In this document: piece by piece, positions 9,083-18,247 of the stretch
Layout: each line of letters opens with the position of its first letter
Position numbering within the stretch: position 1 is the first letter of the stretch
IMG/VR virus record: IMGVR_UViG_3300024518_001195
Coordinates: 1-20,435 of that record
Reading direction: 5' to 3' (one strand)
DNA length: 20,435 nt
DNA from: a virus
Program-made: the position numbers and the translations under genes
The notes under the pieces: model-generated
Told to the model about the DNA's origin: nothing
Seen by the model: the letters and a program-made list of their open reading frames with translations, nothing else
Database searches by the model: none

Positions 9083-9537
9083 TATTTAGTTTGCTTTTGT
9101 TTATCGGCTTCTTTTTTCATTACGTTAAGCATTGAATAAAGCTCTAGTACTGTTGTTTCCTTCTCTCTAACGGGACTTCCTAACCATTTAGTAATATGTA
9201 TTAAAGTCTCTTGCATATCGCTCTTATACGGTCTGTTTAGTATCTCTTCTAATTCTCGCTTATACCTTTTAATTTTGTTGTTTATGAAGTTGTCATTTGT
9301 TATAATTAAATCGCATTGAAGCAAGGCAATGTCTTTTTGTAATTCTAAAACTCTTAAATAGTCTTTACCTAGTCCAAACTTTTCATAATAAGAATCTTGT
9401 ATCAGTTCCCATGCCAAAGCGTCATCAGCTTCGCGACCTATGTTTAAGTCTTTACGTGTGTAAATCAGTTCGCCCTCTTGACATTTACGCCAGTTGTAAA
9501 CCATACACTCATCAATGCTAGTTAGATAGTCTTTCAT
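9082..9537 (-). CDS. Pre-tape-measure protein, possible tail assembly chaperone
   Basis: A 151-residue, mostly helical protein starting MKDYLTSIDECMVYNWRKCQ, with C11 and C19, a hydrophobic helix around LRVLELQKDIALLQCDLIIT, and a basic Lys/Gln-rich C-terminus. It overlaps the preceding gene by 20 bases and the tape-measure start by one base. Tail assembly chaperones that coat the tape measure are normally encoded at this place, so that is the leading guess. I see no obvious slippery heptamer or long alternative-frame extension of the kind that makes G/GT-type fusions. A structural pre-tape protein is the alternative. Confidence 0.7.
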   Translation of the reverse strand: MKDYLTSIDECMVYNWRKCQEGELIYTRKDLNIGREADDALAWELIQDSYYEKFGLGKDYLRVLELQKDIALLQCDLIITNDNFINNKIKRYKRELEEILNRPYKSDMQETLIHITKWLGSPVREKETTVLELYSMLNVMKKEADKQKQTK

Positions 9538-9949
9538 GTAATTCCTTTATGTATTTATCTTTAATCATGTTTATCAGTACTTGGGTATTTTCTTCGGTAA
9601 GTCCTAAAATATCAATACCGTATCTTTCCGTTAAAACTGTATCTTCTTTTACATCGTCAGCAGCTATAAACATTCCCCACTTGTCAACCTTTACTCTAAA
9701 CGATTGGTAAAACTCTCCAGTATCTTTTAGGTTTATATGTCCTTCACGCTTTCCGAACTCTCTTACTGAACGTTCGCTATAGTCAGGCAAGAAAGAGCCG
9801 TCAGAGCGAACCCCATCATCATACAATTGGTCGTCTGTGTTTAGTCTAATGATTTCAAACTGTGTTTCACGGTCAATCACTTCAAACCAAATAGCGTTTT
9901 CGTCTATTGTAGTTAGGTTGGTTAGATATGTGTATAAGCTCTCAAACAT
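9518..9949 (-). CDS. Tail-completion-like protein, first gene of the tail operon
   Basis: A 143-residue soluble alpha/beta protein. Its centre, DTGEFYQSFRVKVDKWGMFIAAD, resembles the pattern of HK97 gp10-like tail-completion proteins (a TG-x-F/L motif, then a strand pair), and it ends in a charged helix. The likeness is by eye and weak. The start is fixed: the in-frame codons upstream run through the terminator to a stop with no other start. Unusually, eight U residues of an intrinsic terminator hairpin (9958-9984) run directly into the ATG, so expression probably needs read-through or refolding of the leader. Alternatives are a neck protein or a phage-specific structural protein. Confidence 0.65.
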   Translation of the reverse strand: MFESLYTYLTNLTTIDENAIWFEVIDRETQFEIIRLNTDDQLYDDGVRSDGSFLPDYSERSVREFGKREGHINLKDTGEFYQSFRVKVDKWGMFIAADDVKEDTVLTERYGIDILGLTEENTQVLINMIKDKYIKELHERLSN

Positions 9950-10005: not shown

Positions 10006-10023
10006 ATCAGAAAGAGTCCTGAT
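10006..10023 (-). promoter_or_regulatory. Small 5' hairpin in the tail-operon leader
   Basis: Minus-strand ATCAG, loop GACTCTTT, CTGAT forms a 5-bp hairpin followed by six T, just downstream of the promoter's -7 box. Its eight-base loop is complementary, with two G-U pairs, to AGGGAGTC, the 3' arm of the downstream terminator, so a loop-to-arm interaction could compete with termination. The hairpin is weak; the pairing is seen in the sequence but its use is speculative. Confidence 0.4.
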
Positions 10024-10027
10024 AGTA

Positions 10028-10069
10028 CAAAGATACAATAATTATTTACATATTGTTATATTTTTAACA
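10028..10069 (-). promoter_or_regulatory. Tail-operon promoter with upstream palindrome
   Basis: On the minus strand TATCTTTG (10028-10035) matches the Bacteroidota -7 box TAnnTTTG. No TTG is present at the usual spacing. Instead an inverted repeat, TGTTA-AAAATA-TAACA (10054-10069), ends 18 bases upstream of the box. The same layout, with a 17-base identical core AATTATTGTATCTTTGT, precedes the portal gene. An activator binding in place of the -33 contact is the simplest reading. The promoter lies directly after the terminator at 10086-10111 and drives the tail genes. Confidence 0.65.
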
Positions 10070-10075
10070 GTTTAT

Positions 10076-10111
10076 TGCAAAAGAAAACCCTCACAACTTA
10101 ATGTAAGGGTT
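10076..10111 (-). terminator. Intrinsic terminator of the accessory cassette
   Basis: Minus-strand AACCCTTACA, loop of six, TGTGAGGGTT gives a 10-bp stem with one G-U pair (10086-10111), followed by a T-rich tract (TTCTTTT). It sits about 45 bases after the stop of the 57-residue gene and just upstream of the tail promoter, separating the cassette from the tail operon. Confidence 0.8.
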
Positions 10112-10116
10112 TAAAT

Positions 10117-11811: not shown

Positions 11812-11819
11812 CAAAGATA
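11812..11819 (-). promoter_or_regulatory. Leftward cassette promoter (-7 box)
   Basis: Minus-strand TATCTTTG matches the Bacteroidota -7 box TAnnTTTG and is identical to the box of the portal and tail promoters. No TTG is found 17-23 bases upstream, and the TGTTA palindrome of the other two is absent. It is arranged back-to-back with the rightward promoter at 11831-11860. It would drive the leader at 11806-11701 and, if read through, the small-gene cassette. Confidence 0.55.
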
Positions 11820-11830
11820 ATGATTTTATT

Positions 11831-11860
11831 TTGATTATTAGAATAATATGTTTAGATTTG
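11831..11860 (+). promoter_or_regulatory. Rightward promoter of the 52-residue gene, with operator-like repeat
   Basis: TTG (11831-11833), a 19-base spacer and TAGATTTG (11853-11860) match the Bacteroidota promoter well. The spacer contains a 14-base inverted repeat, ATTATT-AG-AATAAT (11834-11847), which also lies upstream of the leftward promoter, so one bound protein could control both. The start codon is only 13 bases beyond the box. Confidence 0.7.
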
Positions 11861-16745: not shown

Positions 16746-18029
16746 TTAGTTTTCGCTTTGTGCTTCTTCTTGATTTCCTGTAGCTCCTTCGCTGTTAGTT
16801 TCTTTTCCATTTAAAGTGGCTGTTAATTCGTCGTTGTTAATGCTTTCTAGCTCTCCAATGCTTCTAAGCTCGTCAATCGTCATAACTTTCAAGAACTCAG
16901 CCGCTACCCTACTATCCATAGAGTTAATAGTTTGTAGTAATCTATTAGTTGTAGCTTTTAACTCCTCAATCGTAGTCACGTCAGTCACAACAATCTCGTC
17001 AAGCCCTAAACGCTCATTTAAGAACGTTGTAAGTGTAGATAGTATATTGTTATTCAAAGGAACATAAACGTCACTATAAGCTGTTATTTTAGCTTCTGAT
17101 ACGTTGTTATAAGTACTTGAATCGTTATCATTGAATAATACGCTAGGCATACCGTAAATAGCACTGATTAAACGTAAATCGTTCATTACACCTTCTAGCA
17201 ATTTTAAATCGCTTGGACTCATACCTGTTTGAATGTAGCTTAAATCGCTCGTACTGATTTTAATCTTGTTAAACTTATCAGCACCTCCTACTTCACCATC
17301 AAATTCGTCTTGTAATCTCTGACGTTCTTTTGGCAACATTGGTGCGTCTGACTTGTTAGTAAGGATACCGATAATACCTCTATTTTTAAAGATACTAGCT
17401 GAAGCACTAAACTTCTCATTACTTGATTGAATCAATGTCCACGCAGATTGTAAAGGGCTTAACCCTTGAAGAATTGAAGTAGAGCTTACATTTACTACGT
17501 TTGACATCTTGATATGACATACTTCCTCTGGTTCGTAATAGTAAATAGTTCCACTTGGTAAAGTATATCTATATCTTACTAGTTCGTCGTTTTTGTTTAA
17601 TTCTAACTCTAACAACTTAACCTTTAATACCTCTATCTCGTTACCCATCCCACCGAAACCCATCGTATGAAGTACGTAAGCATTACCACAAAGCAAAAAA
17701 GATTCCTCGATTTCCTGACGTAATAACGGGTCACTTAATAAGTCAACTATAACGCTATCACCTTCAATCTTCTCACCTTCCTCATCCACTTGTGCAATAT
17801 CTAGCTTTGAAGATGTTGTAGCAATCTTATTAACTACCATGTAAAGCAATGGATTATCACCGTATGCACTTAGATATGCTCTACCGTTACCTTTTGATTG
17901 AAACCCGAAAAAGTCTCTCAATACCTCAATACTAGTGTTAGAACGCACTATATTAGGTACATTTGGCGCACTTGGTAAATACGACTTTCCAGTAAAAATA
18001 GATTTAAAAGCGTCTAGTCTGTTAGACAT
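16746..18029 (-). CDS. Portal protein, HK97 type
   Basis: A 427-residue portal subunit that forms the dodecameric DNA entry ring. Family features include GLSPLQSAWTLIQSS, IFKNRGIIGILTNK, the stem helix LLEGVMNDLRLISAIYGMPS and the following TYNNVSEAKITAYSD. The C-terminus is Glu/Asn/Thr-rich. The frame is open to an ATG at 18068, but the -7 box lies at 18047-18054, so an mRNA from that promoter would begin downstream of 18068. The ATG at 18029 (MSNRLDAFKSIFTGK) gives a normal portal N-terminus and is chosen. It heads the head operon. Confidence 0.93.
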   Translation of the reverse strand: MSNRLDAFKSIFTGKSYLPSAPNVPNIVRSNTSIEVLRDFFGFQSKGNGRAYLSAYGDNPLLYMVVNKIATTSSKLDIAQVDEEGEKIEGDSVIVDLLSDPLLRQEIEESFLLCGNAYVLHTMGFGGMGNEIEVLKVKLLELELNKNDELVRYRYTLPSGTIYYYEPEEVCHIKMSNVVNVSSTSILQGLSPLQSAWTLIQSSNEKFSASASIFKNRGIIGILTNKSDAPMLPKERQRLQDEFDGEVGGADKFNKIKISTSDLSYIQTGMSPSDLKLLEGVMNDLRLISAIYGMPSVLFNDNDSSTYNNVSEAKITAYSDVYVPLNNNILSTLTTFLNERLGLDEIVVTDVTTIEELKATTNRLLQTINSMDSRVAAEFLKVMTIDELRSIGELESINNDELTATLNGKETNSEGATGNQEEAQSEN

Positions 18030-18046
18030 AAATGTTAGATTTTCAA

Positions 18047-18088
18047 CAAAGATACAATAATTTTGCAATATATCGTTAAAATCTTAAC
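18047..18088 (-). promoter_or_regulatory. Head-operon promoter with upstream palindrome
   Basis: On the minus strand TATCTTTG (18047-18054) is a TAnnTTTG -7 box. No TTG occurs at the normal -33 spacing. Instead GTTAA-GATT-TTAAC (18075-18088), extendable to TGTTA-N6-TAACG, lies 19-20 bases upstream. The core AATTATTGTATCTTTGT is identical to that of the tail promoter, and both follow a terminator directly. It sets the portal start at 18029. Confidence 0.7.
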
Positions 18089-18105
18089 AAAAATGTTTAG
18101 ACGTT

Positions 18106-18135
18106 AAAAAAAGCCGAACTATTAAGAACGGCTTT
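18106..18135 (-). terminator. Intrinsic terminator after the terminase unit
   Basis: Minus-strand AAAGCCG, a 12-base loop and CGGCTTT form a 7-bp stem followed by a run of T (A tract at 18106-18112 on the plus strand). It ends the terminase transcript and the short transcript of the 12-codon frame, and lies just upstream of the head promoter. Confidence 0.8.
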
Positions 18136-18155
18136 CGGTTTAGGTTGTTGGTTGG

Positions 18156-18217: not shown

Positions 18218-18247
18218 CAAATATATATATAATTATTCGATTGACAA
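18218..18247 (-). promoter_or_regulatory. Consensus promoter upstream of the 12-codon frame
   Basis: Minus-strand TTG (18245-18247), a 19-base spacer and TATATTTG (18218-18225) match the Bacteroidota consensus exactly, unlike the head and tail promoters, so the host RNA polymerase could use it without a phage activator. The spacer is an AT run (TATATATA). It lies in the gap after the large terminase gene. Confidence 0.7.

Follow-up and report, generated by a model that had tools for sequence, protein, structure and literature searches.

Activator-dependent late promoters of phages are a known class, and the arrangement described here would be a variant of it in a group of flavobacterial phages. 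In phage P2, several late promoters have an inverted repeat on their upstream side, at about -55, which is read by one phage activator, Ogr/delta. CRP of E. coli binds half sites with 6-base spacing, and in class II CRP promoters 5-base half sites separated by a 6-base spacer are placed near -40. The middle promoter of phage Mu is devoid of a -35 box and depends on Mor, a phage-coded dimer that binds a dyad with its centre at -43.5; four late promoters of Mu are activated by protein C, a relative of Mor, through a related dyad (PMC4287176, PMC4461284). The -7 element of F. johnsoniae extends from -12 to -5 with the transcript start 4-5 nt below it, its revised consensus is TAHHTTTG, and the -33 motif is weak genome-wide (PMC6847099).

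The window studied here, which is the whole stretch of DNA analysed, is a piece of 20.4 kb from the genome of a tailed phage. Its genes lie almost exclusively on the minus strand and include those for terminase subunits, portal, protease, capsid and tail proteins. The Mor/C promoters of Mu can be taken as the closest working analogy to its head and tail promoters. A dyad over the -35 region is common to several late promoters in both cases (here head, tail and, in the related phage G004, protease), and the Mor dyad at -43.5 is close to the inferred centre of the window palindromes. The two differ in that the -7 box here is of the Bacteroidetes type, the arms are TGTTA and TAAC, and the operator is a predicted one. 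An upstream inverted repeat at several late promoters is also shared with P2, but the Ogr site lies further upstream than the window palindrome. Class II CRP promoters are alike in half-site length, spacer and position near -40, and different in half-site sequence. Compared with Bacteroidetes primary-sigma promoters (TTTG / TANNTTTG), the box TATCTTTG fits the TAHHTTTG -7 element, whereas the -33 position is occupied by a conserved palindrome. In the literature searched, we found no description of a palindrome at this position in Bacteroidetes-type promoters, nor of late-gene switching in flavobacterial phages.

Organization of the head and tail promoters

The features of both promoter regions, together with two promoters of the window used for contrast, are as follows.

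16746-18029, minus strand: portal gene, first of the head operon (Pfam Phage_portal, 5.5e-29)
18047-18054, minus strand: head-operon -7 box TATCTTTG, fitting the TAHHTTTG consensus (PMC6847099)
18075-18089, minus strand: head-operon palindrome TGTTAAGATTTTAAC, inferred -47 to -33
9518-9949, minus strand: first gene of the tail operon, whose family was used for finding tail relatives
10028-10035, minus strand: tail-operon -7 box TATCTTTG
10055-10069, minus strand: tail-operon palindrome TGTTAAAAATATAAC, inferred -46 to -32
18218-18247, minus strand: contrast promoter (normally spaced TTG, no palindrome)
11831-11860, plus strand: contrast promoter (normally spaced TTG, no palindrome)

Sharing of a palindrome by the head and tail promoters in place of a -33 box, as claimed in the original prediction, is confirmed. 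On the minus strand, TGTTA-N6-TAAC is followed by TATCTTTG after 20 bases at the head site, which begins 60 bases upstream of the portal ATG (18029), and after 19 bases at the tail site, ~120 bases upstream of the tail ORF (9949). The head palindrome begins at 18089, one base beyond the interval first proposed for this promoter. When the start rule of another organism, F. johnsoniae, is applied, the palindromes fall at inferred positions -47 to -32, with the centre at -40/-39. The same box, TATCTTTG, is present at both window sites and in all relatives compared. Neither TTTG nor TTG was found 17-23 bases upstream of the head or tail box, in line with the absence of TTG noted before; nevertheless, a missing -33 box alone says little, because the -33 motif is weak across the F. 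johnsoniae genome. At both contrast promoters a TTG is found at 19 bases and the palindrome is lacking, as had been proposed.

Similarity between the two sites extends beyond the palindrome. The identical 17-base core noted previously, AATTATTGTATCTTTGT, occurs in the window only at the head and tail sites, and the agreement estimated over ~44 bases amounts to 34 matches in 43 aligned positions with one gap. The word ATAT following the palindrome was seen at both window sites as TAACRATAT but shows poor conservation among relatives.

The composite pattern (palindrome, spacer and TATCTTTG) was observed twice in the window, against 0.007 occurrences expected by chance from 1000 second-order Markov versions of it, none of which contained two composite sites. 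The palindrome alone, with at most one mismatch, is mildly enriched (26 observed vs 14.1 expected; 2 of 100 shuffles reach 26). A degenerate second operator, ~20 bp farther upstream than the window palindrome, was considered and rejected as unconvincing, having 2-3 mismatches and overlapping the terminator tail. At 11812-11860, divergent promoter-like boxes lie close together (TATCTTTG on the minus and TAGATTTG on the plus strand), flanked by accessory genes which interrupt the late genes.

Conservation in related phages

Relatives were collected by protein similarity of the portal and the tail gene, and not by the motif. The palindrome is kept in all five distinct head promoters obtained through portal similarity (100-54% identity). 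Portal relatives with 78, 77, 67, 63 and 54% identity (L124, L125, L126, L127 and L220, respectively; promoters of the first two are nearly the same) all have TGTTA-N6-TAAC, 18-20 bases and TATCTTTG, and are preceded by a terminator hairpin of variable sequence. In the nearest relative of the tail gene (L142 in G011, 79%), the palindrome is kept 20 bases before the box. A further copy precedes the protease gene in G004 and G005.

Among the eight promoters compared, identity is 100% in the arms, 55% in the six central bases and 44-57% in the flanks; arm identity of the protease site is by construction, because this site was found by pattern, while the other seven are the window's own or protein-found. 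Constant arms around a variable centre form the pattern expected of a dimer binding site.

Conservation in related phages, proposed earlier as a check, therefore holds for head promoters and partly for tail promoters, where G011 has the palindrome and G431 and G432 do not. In the latter two (L340/L341; tail gene 69-70% identical), the terminator and TATCTTTG are kept with no palindrome. The palindrome was also not found in several portal relatives at 46-51% identity. In G431, a palindrome is present ahead of a lysis-type gene, with spacing 12.

The same arrangement is found before head maturation protease and virion genes of other phage types (L177, L004/L079 and the L179 group); since the motif served to pick these cases, they have descriptive value only. 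Viral contigs were also scanned broadly for TGTTA-N6-TAAC followed by TANNTTTG, but the outcome was not used as evidence because the matches, with spacings concentrated at 15, 18, 21 and 24, were mostly in coding sequence. In addition, a one-mismatch copy of the palindrome, TGTTGAAAATCTAAC, lies over the inferred head transcript start (18034-18048, minus strand). Copies of this type occupy the same place in five head relatives, with 1-2 mismatches, and are absent at the tail and protease promoters.

A second palindrome type in more distant relatives

Portal relatives at ~43-52% identity (L129, L225, L226, L237, L240, L245, L247, L251 and others) carry GATTA-N5-TAATC palindromes just upstream of the -7 region. 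In several of them the palindrome is doubled, with copies 21-22 bp apart, although the second copy is exact in some only. The copy nearer to the -7 box is 11 bases from it in L129 and 17 in L237, the box itself being uncertain at some loci. Neither TGTTA-N6-TAAC nor GATTA-N5-TAATC was found in L130, L228, L230, L234, L235 and L239. The operator type thus differs between related phages.

The exact tandem pair was detected in 12 viral stretches and in none of the 395 sampled genomes of the phylum. In one of the 12, L320, the pair precedes a protease gene of another phage type, with spacing 19. In L322, L323, L326 and L327, the tandem ends 2 nt before the start codon of a gene whose product is membrane-like and 83 aa long; the same operator seems to be put to another use there. 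We also observed that the terminase-to-portal proteins of L251 (G024) and L252 (G025) are identical while the early genes of these phages are different, suggesting recent exchange of the packaging/head module between them.

Host genomes and the origin of the regulator

The search for window-type sites in the 395 genomes of the phylum showed no excess over a reversed control and no visible spacing peak; matches were fewer than those of the control, with totals and spacing spread read by eye from the list. In host genomes represented by L313-L317, a promoter with TGTTAYAWTTGTAACA 15-16 bases before TANNTTTG is conserved upstream of a gene for a ~218-aa protein.

Because the operator is conserved at structural promoters, its centres have diverged, and there is no sign of a host regulon, the reading that we favour, and hold to be somewhat better than an even chance, is that the palindromes are operators of a phage-coded dimeric activator that would switch on the structural (late) promoters. 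The activator postulated in the original prediction is hence retained on the grounds of a conserved dimer-type operator without a matching host regulon; the missing -33 box, used as an argument for it, is not diagnostic, and the tail promoters of G431 and G432 lack the palindrome.

A rather unlikely alternative is that the palindrome binds a host regulator, for instance of the CRP/FNR type, borrowed by the phage. The 6-base spacing of half sites is that of CRP-type sites, a similar site occurs in phages with unrelated structural genes, and the CRP-type HTH (PF13545) gave no match in five phage relatives, which is also a difference from class II CRP promoters. This explanation is retained because the palindrome-like host promoter with TGTTAYAWTTGTAACA upstream of TANNTTTG is conserved in about fifteen sampled genomes; however, its spacing is 15-16 and not 18-20, and the 395 genomes have no general excess of sites. 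The absence of this excess and of the tandem GATTA variant from the same genomes, and the change of operator type among related phages, argue for a regulator of phage origin.

Candidates for a phage-coded activator

The window does not include the early region, and a regulator was therefore searched for in the records of relatives, which are fragments. Pfam scans of the early genes of G004 and G011 disclosed one recognisable HTH type, similar to DnaA domain IV, in proteins of ~110 aa. This DnaA-like HTH (PF08299) is present in G004, G011 and G431, which have the TGTTA type, and in G025 and G436, which have the GATTA type, and is absent from the large palindrome-free relatives G007, G017, G019, G020 and G026. 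It is a candidate only, being absent from G024, whose terminase-portal region matches that of G025. Against its role as regulator, it is also found in other phages with no palindrome near the -7 box in the examined stretches. In view of the small number of phages compared and their relatedness, we regard this domain as a lead and not as a result.

Regulators of the described systems were searched for in five relatives. In the fragment records of G004, G011, G431, G025 and G024, the Mor/C family (PF08765) had no match, in which these phages differ from Mu. The Ogr_Delta search yielded no match above the cut-off; one sub-threshold match was obtained, in G011 only (17.8 bits vs cut-off 26.3).

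Activation or repression

Activation rather than repression is suggested by the upstream position of the palindrome, by the lack of a -33 box and by the tandem copies seen in relatives. According to the proposed mechanism, the -7 box TATCTTTG of the structural promoters would be read by the host primary sigma factor. With the predicted operator at about -47 to -32 and no -33 box, a bound dimer would touch RNA polymerase at the place where sigma region 4 normally contacts DNA. A single regulator could in this way start the head operon. Where the series of late genes is broken by accessory genes and a terminator, a second copy of the module would restart the tail operon.

We consider it unlikely that the palindrome is a repressor operator which silences the structural promoters early in infection. 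Such a role would agree with the overlap between the site and the binding place of polymerase, and with the one-mismatch palindrome over the inferred head start, present in 6 of the 6 head loci examined. On the other hand, this second palindrome is absent from the promoters of the tail operon and the protease gene, a repressor would have no -33 box to cover, and the tandem variant extends upstream and not downstream. Furthermore, no phage repressor or integrase was recognised among the listed early genes of G004 and G011.

Terminators and leader hairpins

Hairpins around the two promoters are listed below.

18106-18136, minus strand: terminator-like hairpin with U-run just upstream of the head promoter (-12.3 kcal/mol, z -4.0)
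10085-10112, minus strand: terminator upstream of the tail promoter (-12.9 kcal/mol, z -4.4)
10006-10023, minus strand: small leader hairpin with an ATCAG/CTGAT stem, kept in G011 with a different loop
9957-9985, minus strand: leader terminator-like hairpin, 13 pairs followed by T8, downstream of the tail promoter and ahead of the tail ORF

Both promoters were thought to sit just after a terminator, and hairpins at 18136-18109 (head) and 10112-10085 (tail) are indeed found upstream of each site. The hairpin at 9985-9957, which had escaped mention, is identical in G011, with its eight U. Comparable hairpins precede the tail gene in most relatives, whether a nearby promoter is present or not. 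In most of the relatives L338-L369, down to ~36% protein identity, a terminator-like hairpin with a long U-run is placed just before the tail-gene ATG; stem sequences vary, and TTGGAAA often precedes them. RNAalifold gave no consensus for the hairpins before the tail gene because their stems do not align. Two Rfam matches near the tail promoter were discarded, as they score below gathering and are biologically unlikely.

Such a hairpin ahead of the tail gene could serve as a conserved attenuator separating expression of the head genes from that of the tail genes. Since transcripts from the tail promoter would meet a strong hairpin before reaching the tail ORF, the tail operon probably also needs read-through as a second control, and with this leader terminator present a promoter switch alone is possibly insufficient.

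The same hairpin, kept in relatives, would suit a palindrome acting as a loading site for a phage antiterminator, similar to lambda Q, that carries polymerase past downstream terminators. We find this quite improbable, given that the head promoter has a leader of 17 bases without a terminator, the G004 protease promoter has no leader hairpin, and the tail-gene hairpin is found also in relatives without a promoter or palindrome just upstream. Derivation of the tail promoter from the head promoter by recent copying, with the palindrome carried along functionless, could account for the shared 17-mer and the 34 of 43 matching positions but is highly improbable, as centre and flanks have diverged across the head, tail and protease copies and the arms have not.

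Implications for phages of Bacteroidota

As a tentative and broader proposal, to which we give clearly less than an even chance, a family of Bacteroidota phages would have activator-dependent late promoters in which the place of the -33 box is taken by a palindromic operator, either a single TGTTA-N6-TAAC or a tandem GATTA-N5-TAATC, whose type switches between related phages. The regulator would be of a new type, with the DnaA-like HTH as one candidate.

The operator conserved at head and tail promoters can be used as a bait for finding the regulator, and as a marker of late promoters in metagenomic phages of the flavobacterial group. Promoters with the palindrome are also a possible inducible part for Flavobacterium genetics. 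For the biology of these phages, the shared operator suggests that the virion genes would be turned on jointly by one DNA-binding protein.
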